A DNA stretch of 15,692 bases from Candidatus Desantisbacteria bacterium CG1_02_38_46 (GTDB lineage: Bacteria; Desantisbacteria; UBA1551; UBA1559): NCBI GenBank assembly GCA_001871015.1, contig MNUO01000121.1, positions 1 to 15,692 on the forward strand, in the 5' to 3' direction. The stretch's first letter is position 1. Each line of letters begins with the position of its first letter. This document shows, in pieces, positions 4,012 to 12,565 of the stretch. Below the pieces are notes generated by a model that was not told where the DNA came from, ran no database searches, and saw only the letters and a list, made by a program, of their open reading frames with translations. The translations under genes and the position numbers were made by a program.

Positions 4012-4362
4012 ATGCTTGTACAAAAAATTAATTTCAAAAACGAAAAAGATCTCCAGGTAATCATATTACAAGAAAAGATAAAAGGAACTCCTGATATAGA
4101 AATTGGCAAGAAATATGGGGTTACCTATAGGTATATTGAGCGGCTTATTACAAAATCACAAGGAATTAATATCAGTACACTGAATATTTCTAAAAAAATA
4201 AAGACACTTTATCCGAAAGATTTTAAAGAAGAACAAACAACAGTCTGGAGTTTTAAGTCGCGGGGTAGTTGGGCAACTCACAGCGGAGAATATAGAGGCA
4301 ACTGGTCGCCTTATGCAAATATAATCCAATATAATAACTCTAATGAAGGAAATTTATCATGA
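4012..4362 (+). CDS. DNA methyltransferase N-terminal fragment (truncated)
   Basis: The 116 residues look like the start of an N4/N6-type DNA methyltransferase. A helix-turn-helix-like segment (IGKKYGVTYRYIERLI, about 32-47) precedes EEQTTVWSF and then RGSWATHSGEYRGNWSPY (about 84-101), a signature that normally stands just before the AdoMet-binding FxGxG motif. The reading frame ends about 15 residues later, so both the AdoMet motif and the DPPY/NPPY catalytic motif are absent. It cannot methylate DNA as it stands. It overlaps the downstream endonuclease gene by ATGA, so it may persist because the endonuclease is translated through it. A purely regulatory use of the helix-turn-helix part is possible. 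It starts at ATG with a GGTGAAG-like site upstream. Confidence 0.68.
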   Translation: MLVQKINFKNEKDLQVIILQEKIKGTPDIEIGKKYGVTYRYIERLITKSQGINISTLNISKKIKTLYPKDFKEEQTTVWSFKSRGSWATHSGEYRGNWSPYANIIQYNNSNEGNLS

Positions 4363-5132
4363 AAGAGGATAAATTCACTTGGAAGGATATTGTAAGAAAT
4401 GTTTTATTAGAATTAGGTGGTCAAGGCCATCTTTCTGAAATCAATAAGATAGTGGAAGGATATCCTGGGGCAAAAATTAAGATTGAAAGTAATCCAACTT
4501 GGCAAGCCACAATAAGAAGGGTTGCAAGGCAATACAAAATTTTTGAACCTTTAGGGAAAGGTGTTTACAAGTTATTAGAAGAAGTCCCTATAAAAGCTGA
4601 ACTACAAGAATTTACGGAAGAACCAGAAATTGATCATGGAATTGCTCAGGGAATGTTATTGACGCTGGGGAAAATTTATGGTTATGAAACTTATGCACCT
4701 CTGCATGACCAAACAATCAGGAACTTCCAGAGGAAGCCATTAAGAGACTTTGTTAGTGTAGCTAACTGCACCGATATTTTCAAAGGTCCTAATTTGTCAA
4801 AGATTAGAGAAATAGATGCACTATGGTTTGATGAAGATGATTACGGGTTGTTTCCAATTTATGCTTTTGAAGTGGAAGAAACAACAAGAGTAAAATCTGG
4901 ACTGGATAGATTATTAAAGATACCAAGGAGATTCCCCACCAGATTTTTTATTATAGGATCAAGCACAAAAGAAAAAGATTTATTCAATCAATATATAAAT
5001 CAAACACCATTCAGAAACTTTAAAGATAAATTTTTGTTTAGACTTTACAAAGAGTTAAAAGAACTTTACAGCTCTGCGTTGATACATAATGACTATCGAG
5101 AACAATTTGGAATCATTGAAAGGGGAAAGTAG
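4359..5132 (+). CDS. HARE-HTH type restriction endonuclease
   Basis: A 257-residue protein with an N-terminal HARE-HTH winged-helix domain (about 5-73: FTWKDIVRNVLLELGGQGHL and then NPTWQATIRRV), a DNA-binding module common in restriction systems. A probable PD-(D/E)XK nuclease core follows. Asp153 in IREIDALWF and the pair Glu171/Glu173 in YAFEVEETT are in the right spacing and strand context for the metal-binding residues. The usual lysine is replaced in the visible ExE motif, as in some restriction families. It probably cuts DNA at a specific site in the cytoplasm. Its neighbour is the stub of a methyltransferase of the sort that normally protects the host, so protection must come from elsewhere or the nuclease may be inactive. 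The start is fixed by the ATGA overlap. Confidence 0.72.
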   Translation: MKEDKFTWKDIVRNVLLELGGQGHLSEINKIVEGYPGAKIKIESNPTWQATIRRVARQYKIFEPLGKGVYKLLEEVPIKAELQEFTEEPEIDHGIAQGMLLTLGKIYGYETYAPLHDQTIRNFQRKPLRDFVSVANCTDIFKGPNLSKIREIDALWFDEDDYGLFPIYAFEVEETTRVKSGLDRLLKIPRRFPTRFFIIGSSTKEKDLFNQYINQTPFRNFKDKFLFRLYKELKELYSSALIHNDYREQFGIIERGK

Positions 5133-5137
5133 AGGTT

Positions 5138-5401
5138 ATGATCAAAATAATTATTGATTCCAAATATCACCGGGACCAATTTGATGATTGGCTTGCAGGT
5201 GGCAGGTTTGAACTTAAGGGTAAAACTTACTATTGGTCAGCACGAAATAGCAATCTTGGTTTTGGCTGGGAAATTGAACCTGTCTCGGAAGAGGATTGGA
5301 ATATGATTCCATAGGAAGAATTTAGCAAGATTTTGGAAACCATTGAAGGTTGTCTTGTAGAGCATAAAACAGAATACAATATTACATTTAGCAATAAGTA
5401 A
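5138..5401 (+). pseudogene. Small unnamed gene broken by an in-frame TAG
   Basis: The ATG at 5138 opens a 58-codon frame (MIKIIIDSKYHRDQFDDWLA at the start) that ends at TAG 5312-5314. The same frame then continues for 28 more codons (EEFSKILETIEGCLVEHKTE and on) to a TAA at 5399-5401. Both halves look like real protein. A one-base change (for example CAG to TAG) would explain the break and restore an 86- to 87-residue protein. It lies 5 bases after the endonuclease gene and 14 before the next small gene, in the same operon. I recognise no family. Alternatives are a genuine 58-residue protein or amber readthrough, but TAG is a normal stop for other genes here. Confidence 0.5.
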
Positions 5402-5415: not shown

Positions 5416-5688
5416 GTGAGATCTTATATATTTATAACCCAAGAGGGATTTACTTATCAACCTGACAGGATATCACCCGACCCAGATATTGAAAATTGTC
5501 AGGTTGTTGGTTTTGCGAAAGGGAATAACGAAAAAGAAGCATTTAAAAATCTTATCAAAGAAAATCAGTGTCTATTAGATTCAAATTTTGATGAAGTTAT
5601 GTGTGTAGAATTAAAAAACGAAGATTATTATGATAAGTCTAAATATTTTCATTTGAATGATTATAAAAACAAAATACTTAATAATTGA
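5416..5688 (+). CDS. Small acidic unnamed protein
   Basis: 90 residues from a GTG start behind a perfect AGGAGG site. It opens with an RSYIFITQEGFTYQP strand and then PDIENCQVVGFAKGNNEKEA, and appears to form a small alpha/beta fold resembling uncharacterised proteins that accompany accessory genes. It has no signal peptide, membrane segment or clear catalytic motif. Its overall charge is acidic and its codons are strongly AT-rich, like the DGQHR gene 35 bases downstream. Being in the same transcriptional unit, it might be a partner or immunity-type protein for that gene or for the endonuclease, but nothing in the sequence proves this. Confidence 0.65.
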   Translation: MRSYIFITQEGFTYQPDRISPDPDIENCQVVGFAKGNNEKEAFKNLIKENQCLLDSNFDEVMCVELKNEDYYDKSKYFHLNDYKNKILNN

Positions 5689-5723: not shown

Positions 5724-7727
5724 ATGGATGAAATTGAAGAGGAATCTATTCAGAAGAGAGCAGCAAGGTTTGAAGGAAGAATTAGGCAGTTACTTAATAA
5801 AATGGAGTTTAAGGATGTAAATGGAGGCCCAGCTTTTAAAATAGGTGGAATGCAGATCGATGTTTGTGGTGGTCATGAGAATACTCTTCTAGTAATAGAA
5901 TGTTATGCCCCTACAAAAATTAAAAGTTCTATAAGAGAAAAACTTAAGGGATTTAAGGGTAGTATTCCTTCTATTCAAACCGGTATTAGGAAACACGAGA
6001 TTTATGAAAAATATTCTAAGGTTAAGTATATACTCGCTGCAAAAAACATACTATTGAATGAAGAAAACAGTAAACTTGCCAAGGAATCTCCTCCGATTGA
6101 AATATGGTGGGAAGAATTTGTTGATTATTATGAGCATCTTTCAAGAACAATAAAAAAATATGCCAAATATAATTTACTTGGAGAAATGGGGATTTTGCCT
6201 CGAGTAGAAAATCAAATTAAAATACCGGCCTTTAAGATAGAATTAAGAAATAATGTTGCTTATTTATTTTTTATAGATCCAAGGAGGCTTCTTGAAGCTT
6301 CTTATGTTGCAAGAAGAGAAGTGGGCAAAGAAAAATATTACCAAAGGATATTGAAAAAGAAAAGAATCAAAGAAATAACCGATTTTGTTAATAAGAAAGG
6401 AGGGTTTTTCCCAAATAATATAATTATTTCTTTAAATGAAAAATCAAAATTTACACCTTTCAAAGAAATAGAAAGAGAAACTCAAGACTGTTGGTTAAAA
6501 GGAATGGAATTTGGGATCTTATCATTCCCATTTACTTATAGAAGTTGCTGGATAATTGATGGGCAACACAGATTATATGCTTTTTCCGACAGTACAGTAG
6601 ATTCTAAAATTCCTGTTGTTGCTTTTGATAAGTTAGACACAAATAAACAAGCAAAGTTATTTATAGATATAAATGCAGAGCAAAAGACTGTAGATTCTGA
6701 TCTTATATGGGACCTTCAAGGAGAAATGAGACCAACGGATGAAGAAGGTATTATATCCCGAATTGTTAAAAAATTAAACGAAGAAGACCCGTTCAAGAAC
6801 AAAATATATATTCCCTTTTACGGTAAAAAGAAACCAGGGCAATTAAAGCTTTCAGGAATGTGTATTAGTATAAAGAGAAATAGATTAGTTGAAAGCGTGA
6901 CAGCAGGAAACATAAAAAATCTTTTGTACGATGATGATTCAAATAAAATAGTTGAGAAAGTATCTAAAGCGCTATCCGCTTATTTTTCTATTATTAATAA
7001 TAAATACGCAGAAAATGAAAAAAAGGGCTTCTTTTTCCATAATACAGGAGTTAGCGTAATGATTATTATTTTTGAAAGAATAATGTCAGCATTTTCTCAA
7101 TATAGATCTAATATGCCGATTCCATCCGATATAGATAAATATTTAGGCATTACTCTTTCTTACACAAAAGATAACTACAAAGATTTGAAAGAGCTAAGAC
7201 TTAAATGTACGAGTGAGGGTGGTAAAAGCGGAGTTGCTGAGGAATTTGTAGAAGCAATTAACGAGAAAAAAGATCCTTCTTTGCTTACTCTATTTGCTAA
7301 AAGCCAGCCTATGGAATATGAAAAAGAAATTATTAATTTAGAAATTAACTTGAGGGATCTAATTAAAAATAAATTAGAGATGTTATCACAAAATTGGTAC
7401 ACAGAAAGAGTTCCATCTAATGTGTATAATAGGGCATCAGAAAAAGCAAAACAGGAAGATAGAGATTTTTTTGAGTTTTTTACACTGGGAGATTGTAAAG
7501 TGATAATAGAGAGAAAGGATAATTGGAATCAGATTTTTAAAGATATTTTTATTGGAGAAGATAAATTTACTTCAGACAATCTTTTTTGGGGAGGATTTGA
7601 TTTAATTTTAAAATTTAGAAATCCAAAAATGCACGGAAGAGGTAAAGATTGGGATACATCGCAAAAAGATATGTTAAAATCCTCAATAAATATAATGATG
7701 AGATGTATTGATAAGTGTTCCGATTAA
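5724..7727 (+). CDS. PD-(D/E)XK-like / DGQHR / HEPN fusion protein
   Basis: The 667 residues show three regions. Residues 10-110 resemble a restriction-nuclease fold, with Asp46 (IDVCGG) and Glu59 (LVIECYA). The lysine expected two residues after the Glu is Tyr61, so this domain may be inactive. Residues about 165-450 form a DGQHR domain: WIIDGQHRLYAFS at 276-288, then LFIDINAEQKTVDSDL at 312-327, as in DndB/DpdB-like proteins tied to DNA modification and defence. The C-terminal region from about 535 has the helical pattern of Swt1/DUF4145-like HEPN domains, ending in RNPKMHG (Arg632, His637), the Rx4-6H RNase motif. The gene has an AAAGGAGG site 8 bases before the ATG and is notably AT-rich. 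A defence role is inferred from domains and neighbours. The DGQHR call is firm and the two flanking domains are less so. Confidence 0.8.
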   Translation: MDEIEEESIQKRAARFEGRIRQLLNKMEFKDVNGGPAFKIGGMQIDVCGGHENTLLVIECYAPTKIKSSIREKLKGFKGSIPSIQTGIRKHEIYEKYSKVKYILAAKNILLNEENSKLAKESPPIEIWWEEFVDYYEHLSRTIKKYAKYNLLGEMGILPRVENQIKIPAFKIELRNNVAYLFFIDPRRLLEASYVARREVGKEKYYQRILKKKRIKEITDFVNKKGGFFPNNIIISLNEKSKFTPFKEIERETQDCWLKGMEFGILSFPFTYRSCWIIDGQHRLYAFSDSTVDSKIPVVAFDKLDTNKQAKLFIDINAEQKTVDSDLIWDLQGEMRPTDEEGIISRIVKKLNEEDPFKNKIYIPFYGKKKPGQLKLSGMCISIKRNRLVESVTAGNIKNLLYDDDSNKIVEKVSKALSAYFSIINNKYAENEKKGFFFHNTGVSVMIIIFERIMSAFSQYRSNMPIPSDIDKYLGITLSYTKDNYKDLKELRLKCTSEGGKSGVAEEFVEAINEKKDPSLLTLFAKSQPMEYEKEIINLEINLRDLIKNKLEMLSQNWYTERVPSNVYNRASEKAKQEDRDFFEFFTLGDCKVIIERKDNWNQIFKDIFIGEDKFTSDNLFWGGFDLILKFRNPKMHGRGKDWDTSQKDMLKSSINIMMRCIDKCSD

Positions 7728-11317: not shown

Positions 11318-11413
11318 TAAAGTGTCAGTCCAAGGAAGTAGAAAAACATTTGGTGAATTTAATGGTTGAGAGTTGCCGAAGCAACCCTGGCTGGTGCGAT
11401 TAAAGATAAAAAA

Positions 11414-12565
11414 ATGAAAAATAAAAAAAATCATAATAGTTTAATAGAAAAATCATCAAAACAATTTGTATCTCAATCTCTAAAAGGGTTACCCACTGGT
11501 TATAAAGAATTTCTTGAAAAACTTAAATTACGTATTCGTTCTGCTCAAATTAAAGCATCGCTTTCAGCCAATTTTGAGTTAATACAACTCTACTGGGATA
11601 TCGGATGTGAAGTTGTAGAACGACAACAAAAAGATGGCTGGGGGGCATCAGTTATTGAATATTTATCCGTAGACCTTCAGCGTGCATTTCCTGGGATGAA
11701 AGGTTTCTCTACGCGTAATATTTGGCGTATGAGAGCATTTTATCTGGCATATACTGGGGAAGTTAAAATTCTGCCACAGGTTGTGGCAGAATTAGATGGT
11801 AAAAATCTACCACGTTCTGTGGCAGGAATTCCCTGGGGTCACAATGCTGTTATTATTGAACAGGTAAAAGATCCTGTAGAGAGGATTTGGTATGCTCAAA
11901 AAATTCTTAAATATGGATGGTCGCGAGATATTTTAGTCCTGCAGATAGAAAATGATTTATACCATCGTCAGGGTAAAGCACTCACTAATTTTGATAAAAC
12001 ACTTCCACCATTGCAATCAGACCTTGCAAAACAAACACTCAAAGATCCTTATATTTTTGATTTTCTAACTTTAGATACAGAATCCAGAGAACAGGAGTTA
12101 GAAAAAGGACTTATTGACCATCTTACAAAATTTCTTCTTGAACTTGGAGTTGGATTTTCATTTGTTGGTAAACAGGTTCATTTTGAAGTTGGTGGAGAAG
12201 ATTTTTATATTGATTTGTTATTTTATCATCTTAAACTGCGTTGTTATATAGTTATAGAACTAAAGGCAGGGGCATTTAAACCAGAATATGCAGGTAAAAT
12301 GAATTTTTATCTTAATGCCGCAGATGATTTAATGCGTCATCCCGATGATAAACCAAGCATTGGTCTTTTATTATGTAAATCAAAAAATCGCCTTATTGTG
12401 GAATATGCATTGCGCGAAATAAAAAAGCCAATAGGTGTTGCTCGATGGACAACCAAGATTGTTAAGGCATTACCTGAAAATCTTAAAGAAAATCTTCCAA
12501 CTATTGAACAAATAGAAAAGGAATTAAAAGAAATTGGGAAAACGAAAAGGAGAAATAAGAGGTAG
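11414..12565 (+). CDS. DUF1016 (YhcG-type) PD-(D/E)XK nuclease
   Basis: The 383 residues match the widespread DUF1016 layout. A helical N-terminal domain (about 25-150) includes QLYWDIGCEVVERQ, WGASVIEYLSVDLQ and FSTRNIWRMRAFY, and continues to IPWGHN and IWYAQKILKYGWSRDIL. The C-terminal nuclease domain has Asp267 in FYIDLLFYH and Glu282/Lys284 in YIVIELKAG, a complete PD-(D/E)XK triad, followed by the conserved GKMNFYLNAADD. It probably acts on DNA, and such proteins are often carried by mobile or defence regions. The ATG at 11414 gives the usual Lys-rich N-terminus but has no good ribosome site. The in-frame TTG at 11366 would add 16 residues. It sits between ilvE and the deacetylase operon and looks like an insertion there. 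Confidence 0.9.
   Translation: MKNKKNHNSLIEKSSKQFVSQSLKGLPTGYKEFLEKLKLRIRSAQIKASLSANFELIQLYWDIGCEVVERQQKDGWGASVIEYLSVDLQRAFPGMKGFSTRNIWRMRAFYLAYTGEVKILPQVVAELDGKNLPRSVAGIPWGHNAVIIEQVKDPVERIWYAQKILKYGWSRDILVLQIENDLYHRQGKALTNFDKTLPPLQSDLAKQTLKDPYIFDFLTLDTESREQELEKGLIDHLTKFLLELGVGFSFVGKQVHFEVGGEDFYIDLLFYHLKLRCYIVIELKAGAFKPEYAGKMNFYLNAADDLMRHPDDKPSIGLLLCKSKNRLIVEYALREIKKPIGVARWTTKIVKALPENLKENLPTIEQIEKELKEIGKTKRRNKR
11767..11793. repeat. Perfect 11-base inverted repeat inside the DUF1016 gene
   Basis: AATTCTGCCAC (11767-11777), the 5-base spacer AGGTT and GTGGCAGAATT (11783-11793) pair perfectly. A third partial copy (TCTGTGGCAGGAATT) lies near 11817-11831. They encode the repeated peptide pattern LPQVVAEL / LPRSVAGI just before IPWGHN. 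The protein repeat is typical of the family, but the perfect DNA palindrome is more than coding needs. Confidence 0.5.

Follow-up and report, generated by a model that had tools for sequence, protein, structure and literature searches.

Among proteins with a DGQHR domain, DndB and DpdB work together with the dnd and dpd genes; to our knowledge, neither has the N- and C-terminal domains that flank DGQHR in the protein described here. The DGQHR domain has a signature of three motifs, a QR pair, DGQHR and FxxxN (PMC4619093). ParB-type domains bind CTP, ATP or GTP via a GxxR P motif, and ParB-like proteins cannot bind NTP without the arginine of this motif; a DndB-like protein binds ATP and GTP, and the NTP specificity of ParB-like domains is unpredictable from sequence (PMC12704722). 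In SspE, the DGQQR domain hydrolyses GTP on DNA sensing and licenses the C-terminal nuclease, and replacement of its arginine by alanine abolishes both (PMC13251355).

HEPN domains have also been placed beside restriction genes. Table 1 of Anantharaman et al. 2013 (PMC3710099) lists a Swt1-like HEPN domain, graded "mostly active", fused to ParB in Saro_3948 of Novosphingobium aromaticivorans. The same paper lists an operon of the HEPN protein MAE_28990 with ParB and a DNA methylase, proposes that HEPN domains fused to restriction-modification DNases are PrrC-like suicide back-ups, and takes PrrC as the model for restriction-linked HEPN proteins. Since the ParB-HEPN fusion is tabulated there, proteins of this kind are already known from sequence analysis. 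HEPN is not mentioned in the GmrSD paper on DGQHR (PMC4619093) or in the ParB-CTPase survey of 2025 (PMC12704722), and the DefensePredictor 2026 text contains neither DGQHR nor ParB.

The current work concerns a 667-residue DGQHR protein encoded in the window, a stretch of 15,692 nucleotides from Candidatus Desantisbacteria bacterium CG1_02_38_46. Like SspE, GmrSD and BrxU (DUF262 DGQQR NTPase with HNH), the protein has a ParB/Srx-type domain, a DGQ(Q/H)R motif and a fused C-terminal nuclease; however, its nuclease is HEPN, of the RNase kind, rather than HNH, an extra PD-(D/E)XK domain lies at its N-terminus, and phosphorothioation genes are lacking. With PrrC-PrrI, in which a HEPN anticodon nuclease guards a type I restriction-modification system, it shares a HEPN RNase-type domain under an NTP-binding domain and a tie to restriction genes, but PrrC uses an ABC ATPase, whereas here a DGQHR domain and a restriction endonuclease fold are joined in one chain. 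PD-lambda-5, a compact combination of restriction-modification and abortive infection (PMC9519451), likewise pairs a methyltransferase with an abortive function, and the methyltransferase of the present family matches PD-Lambda-5_B (E 4.2e-10); the DGQHR protein, however, has no match to the PD-lambda-5 models.

Membership in the Dnd, Dpd and GmrSD/SspE groups was ruled out by scores, motifs and gene content. Although the DGQHR domain is shared with DndB and DpdB, the protein reached 22.1 bits with DndB (TIGR03233), for which the equivalog cut-off is 328, and 92.3 bits with DpdB (NF041060), for which it is 300; the window contains no dpd genes. The motif is DGQHR and not DGQQR, and no DUF262 or HNH match was found in Pfam.

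Saro_3948 resembles the window protein in its ParB-type domain and Swt1-like HEPN domain with an active motif, and it comes from the same strain as a plasmid homologue in our set (L004, Novosphingobium pNL1). L004 is very probably Saro_3948, because it derives from the strain that bears the Saro tags; it is 25% identical to the window protein. For Saro_3948, however, the 2013 table names just ParB and HEPN, and the text consulted has no N-terminal PD-(D/E)XK domain, Dam-type partner or DNase loss. The suggestion of the preliminary description that the architecture may be undescribed therefore fails for the fusion of Swt1-like HEPN with ParB and, within the literature searched, stands for the three-domain form. 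Apparently new here are this three-domain architecture, the pairing with an adenine methyltransferase, and the loss of the DNase site with retention of HEPN, none of which was found described in a search that lay mostly outside the subscription literature.

Three-domain layout of the protein

The open reading frame was confirmed exactly at 5724-7727, with an ATG start and 667 codons for amino acids. Its features are as follows.

5724..7727, + strand: whole gene, 667 aa, PD-(D/E)XK-like, DGQHR and HEPN (open reading frame; families; AlphaFold2 model, pLDDT 88.8)
5748..6194, + strand: PD-(D/E)XK (Hjc/Card1/Mrr-like) domain, residues 9-157, probably catalytically dead here (Hjc and Card1_endonuc matches of relatives; VIA-align)
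5859..5906, + strand: active-site strand D46 ... E59-C60-Y61, with the D-ExK lysine changed to tyrosine (alignment of relatives)
6228..7085, + strand: DGQHR domain, ParB/sulfiredoxin fold of the NTP-binding kind, residues 169-454 (TIGR03187; structure match)
6558..6572, + strand: D279-G-Q-H-R283 signature, which fits the GxxR pattern of the P motif in ParB (invariant in 89 relatives)
7296..7724, + strand: Swt1-like HEPN domain, residues 525-667 (HEPN_Swt1 in relatives; domain model; VIA-align)
7617..7634, + strand: HEPN Rx4-6H motif, R632-NPKM-H637 (conservation in relatives)

When the protein was searched alone (Pfam, phmmer), the DGQHR domain was the sole significant match, and the assignment of the N- and C-terminal domains therefore required relatives. 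A three-sequence alignment of the window protein, L003 (Rhizobium plasmid) and L004 served as query. A genome set with one representative per species yielded 134 relatives, 80 loci of which were retained, and IMG/VR yielded 8 more. Most relatives are full-length (670-820 aa), and they are spread over many bacterial phyla and archaea. The full-length AlphaFold2 model has a mean pLDDT of 88.8. Foldseek gave no hit with E <0.001 for this model or for the C-terminal domain model, so the domain assignments rest on VIA-align matches, Pfam matches in relatives and motif conservation. Each of the three folds, PD-(D/E)XK, ParB/Noc and HEPN, was matched by VIA-align. A promoter scan stayed at chance level.

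The DGQHR core of the preliminary description is well borne out: TIGR03187 covers residues 169-454 with 149.6 bits (cut-off 58.85, E 1.5e-43), and PF14072 matches residues 168-325 (E 5.8e-13), its sole match in the source genome assembly. The signature motifs are Q207-R208, D279-R283 and F313-N317; they are near-invariant among relatives, and DGQHR itself is invariant. GQHR fits the GxxR P motif, and VIA-align matched model residues 171-321 to ParB (with CDP or CTP-gamma-S), Noc and PadC (Z 8.2-8.5). The core had been called DNA-sensing; what the model points to is a ParB-type fold of the NTP-binding kind, for which DNA sensing would follow by analogy.

The N-terminal segment of the window protein alone had no significant Pfam match. 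Among segments of relatives, Hjc was found in 29 of 43 and Card1 endonuclease (Card1_endonuc) in 26 of 43. Model residues 12-157 matched 1y88 (Z 12.8), EndoMS (9.5) and Cdn1, Can2 and Card1 (8.9-9.1) in VIA-align, and an hmmsearch of the N-terminal profile against PDB gave weak matches to Hjc, 1y88 and Can2 only. The nuclease-like N-terminus proposed earlier is thus right as to fold, but the active site is incomplete: D46 and E59 are present, and the catalytic lysine is replaced by Tyr61 (ECY). Lysine occupies this position in 68 of 89 aligned relatives, and D-ExK is intact in 67 of 87. Because the lysine is gone, the N-terminal DNase of the window copy is probably dead.

The C-terminal sequence RNPKMHG had been read as a HEPN motif, and conservation agrees. 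Across 89 aligned proteins, no position in the last 200 residues is better conserved than R632 (81/82) and H637 (81/81). The search itself did not favour the motif, because relatives were retrieved with N-terminal and DGQHR-core patterns only. Rx4-6H occurs in all 81 C-termini, against a mean of 25 and a maximum of 34 in 200 shuffles, which excludes chance; with later additions, all 87 relatives whose C-terminus is complete have it, including those in which the DNase site is damaged. HEPN_Swt1 (PF18731) matched 18 of 48 C-terminal segments of relatives (best 5.9e-7) and PADLOC PDC-M34B matched 28 of 48; the window segment alone had no HEPN match in Pfam at 0.1 and matched PDC-M34B with E 1.8e-4. 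Nothing on PDC-M34 was found in the literature searched, and an hmmsearch of the C-terminal profile against PDB returned nothing significant. The domain modelled alone reached pLDDT 92, and its nine best VIA-align matches were all HEPN proteins (Z 7.4-5.0, yeast Swt1 at the top; next match 4.1). These scores below 8 are modest for a helical domain, so the case for HEPN rests on the motif and the profiles as well; all three lines of evidence agree. The arrangement of Arg632 and His637 on paired helices, which the preliminary description had set as a test, was covered at the level of the fold.

Methyltransferase partners and the DNase site

A gene of about 280 aa recurs in 58 of 91 loci, mostly just downstream of the DGQHR-HEPN gene and with an overlap of a few bases. 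Its product is an adenine methyltransferase of the D12 type (PF02086, E down to 5e-59). When adjacency meant a D12 enzyme encoded on the same strand no more than 800 bp away, 54 of the 85 relatives suited to the tree had one. The closest solved structure to this enzyme is M.DpnII (DpnM; E 8.8e-46), and GATC is therefore its likely target. In the same place, MT-A70 is found in L039 and L055 and a divergent D12 enzyme in L077 and L084; this repeated exchange for another adenine methyltransferase indicates a working pair. With a Dam/DpnM-type methyltransferase adjacent in so many relatives, most of the family has the appearance of restriction-modification systems made up of two genes. As a rule of the family, then, the gene neighbours speak against the single-gene system that had been suggested.

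Domain content, motifs, gene neighbours and lysine loss are computed results, and the last two appear to go together. Where an adenine methyltransferase is adjacent, 50 of 56 relatives have an intact D-ExK; where none is, 15 of 32 do (Fisher p 2.7e-5, a value that ignores kinship).

Another group of relatives (L003, L004, L073, L085, L086 and others) adjoins a radical SAM protein, usually together with a GHKL-type ATPase, which in L003 is PF13589; a second DGQHR gene lies nearby in L003 and L004. In both of these loci (L003 7747-16504, L004 9788-20190), the conserved cluster consists of PD-(D/E)XK-DGQHR-HEPN, the second DGQHR protein, the radical SAM protein, the GHKL ATPase, a PIN-like protein and a further ATPase, and the lysine of the DNase site is missing from the DGQHR-HEPN protein. 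This cluster gives the impression of a system for DNA modification or defence that has not been described.

The window and its clade

In the tree, the window protein groups with L010, L012, L013 and L014 (100/98), then with L019 (100/100); L122 is a further archaeal relative with 34% identity to the window protein. The lysine is lost in L013 (T), L019 (D-C-A) and L122 (Q-C-R), and is kept in L010, L012, L014 and L015. No member of the clade has an adjacent adenine methyltransferase, and no D12 enzyme above the cut-off was found in the genomes of L010, L012, L013, L014 and L019. The source genome of the window has D12 matches elsewhere, the best with 62 bits. With 15 N6_N4 methyltransferase matches on an incomplete genome of 1.7 Mb it is unusually rich in such enzymes, and a distant partner is therefore possible.

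Upstream of the gene, the window contains the following features.

4012..4362, + strand: 116-aa open reading frame ending in an N-terminal fragment (about 45 residues) of a type II methyltransferase, the rest of which is missing (PADLOC MTase_II)
4359..5132, + strand: 257-aa gene resembling type II restriction endonucleases, with no intact methyltransferase next to it (PADLOC REase_II, E 1.8e-4; homologue in L010)
5138..5302, + strand: small open reading frame of about 54 aa (read from the sequence; no homologue in the fetched loci)
5416..5688, + strand: 90-aa open reading frame common to L013 (identity to the L013 frame)

Thus, at 4012-5132, a truncated type II methyltransferase is directly followed by an intact restriction endonuclease, whose expected partner enzyme has shrunk to this remnant. 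In the first frame, residues 59-103 match positions 2-46 of the 249 of MTase_II (E 2.4e-11). The adjacent cognate methyltransferase by which type II restriction-modification is recognised is absent from the window and present in the wider family (54/85). The same 257-aa endonuclease lies upstream in L010, also without a methyltransferase; the two copies are 74.5% identical, and the DGQHR proteins about 40%. In L010, the neighbour endonuclease is present and the D-ExK lysine is still kept. No relative of this endonuclease was found in PDB or IMG/VR, and plasmids gave distant relatives only.

Other restriction enzymes lie beside the gene elsewhere in the clade: DpnI adjoins L013 and L019, and a HaeIII-type endonuclease with a C5 methyltransferase adjoins L122. 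Of about eight clade members, five thus have restriction genes, of three enzyme kinds, next to DGQHR-HEPN; L012 and L014 have none. The 90-aa frame is 53% identical over 68 aa to L013 13041-13244, which lies beside the DGQHR-HEPN and DpnI genes.

The block from 4.0 to 7.7 kb has a G+C content of 30-34%, against 38-44% around it, and for this reason looks like an inserted cassette. It ends 20 bases before lysS. An empty site was sought at the lysS of a relative from the same order, which proved too distant to show one.

Matches to the window methyltransferase fragment also adjoin DGQHR-HEPN genes in Methanosarcinales/Methanoperedens (L021, L036, L059, L076), with several in L021, as if methyltransferase copies, broken time and again, had accumulated in these loci.

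Elsewhere in the window, a YhcG/DUF1016-type PD-(D/E)XK protein (PADLOC PDC-S02, E 2.8e-148) is encoded at 11366-12562, with ilvE on one side and a divergent gene resembling polysaccharide deacetylases on the other; it is likely a second defence gene.

Candidate function and further DGQHR pairs

The product of 5724-7727 appears to be a real, conserved, restriction-linked HEPN effector, with putative RNase activity and a presumed part in phage defence. On balance we lean towards reading the window gene as the effector of a restriction-type defence, in which an NTP-switched HEPN RNase would act as back-up to restriction. The DGQHR domain, with its ParB fold, would bind NTP and act as the switch that connects a DNA-engaging PD-(D/E)XK domain with the C-terminal RNase. 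In most relatives the protein would serve as a restriction partner, with the adjacent adenine methyltransferase marking self DNA, the PD-(D/E)XK domain cutting unmethylated DNA and HEPN forming the second line. By analogy with SspE, the NTP state may make the RNase activity of HEPN depend on the sensing of DNA: foreign or damaged DNA would be sensed, the switch would release the RNase, and cleavage of RNA would halt the cell before the phage spreads. In the window lineage, DNA cutting may have passed to a separate restriction enzyme, leaving the second line alone; with its DNase lysine lost and the HEPN site alone intact, the window copy would be a back-up guard in its source genome.

A broader proposal is more tentative, with chances a little short of even. 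An unnamed, widespread two-gene class of restriction-modification may exist, which combines an adenine methyltransferase with a chain of DNase, NTP switch and RNase; in some lineages the methyltransferase would have been lost first and the DNase next, and what persists would be an RNase that stands guard by itself beside unrelated restriction endonucleases (DpnI, HaeIII and others).

It is unlikely that the gene is an independent one-gene abortive infection system whose restriction neighbours reflect ordinary clustering in defence islands. L012 and L014 would fit such a gene, as would the variety of neighbouring enzymes among clade members and the unrelated YhcG-type nuclease in the same window. 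However, restriction genes adjoin it in the majority of the clade, and outside the clade the family is closely tied to the methyltransferase.

A plain restriction endonuclease, with DNA cleavage by PD-(D/E)XK as its output and HEPN as a non-catalytic dimerisation or RNA-binding module, seems quite unlikely. The adenine methyltransferase next to most relatives, the intact D-ExK in 50 of 56 of these and the overlaps of a few bases between the adjacent genes would all suit a simple restriction pair. Yet the arginine and histidine of HEPN are the most conserved C-terminal residues and are kept in 87 of 87 relatives, including those with a broken DNase site, and the window copy itself lacks both the lysine and the neighbouring adenine methyltransferase. 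It is very improbable that the protein regulates or assists DNA modification in the manner of DndB or DpdB instead of being an effector. The DGQHR domain is of that kind, and the L003/L004 neighbours (second DGQHR, radical SAM enzyme, ATPase) could form a modification pathway. However, the scores lie far under both family cut-offs, the window has no dnd or dpd genes, and besides DGQHR the protein carries two domains of nuclease type, in one of which the active-site motif is invariant.

If the reading as an NTP-switched HEPN back-up to restriction holds, one polypeptide would contain both layers of the theory that joins restriction-modification to abortive infection, cutting foreign DNA and, on failure, the cell's own RNA, with an NTP switch between them. 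Among natural variants, either the DNase lysine or the methyltransferase has gone, whereas the HEPN motif is always kept; the coupling of restriction and suicide, proposed long ago, thereby becomes directly testable by point mutants. A large number of proteins whose annotation says no more than "DGQHR domain-containing protein" would also gain a function from this reading.

Short DGQHR proteins of about 330 aa, each followed directly by a protein of about 300 aa, were also observed in L009 (427-4303), L006 (6007-7877) and L008 (5971-7900). The pair in L009 sits behind a methyltransferase and a NotI-type restriction endonuclease, and these genes are possibly a different DGQHR pair linked to restriction-modification.
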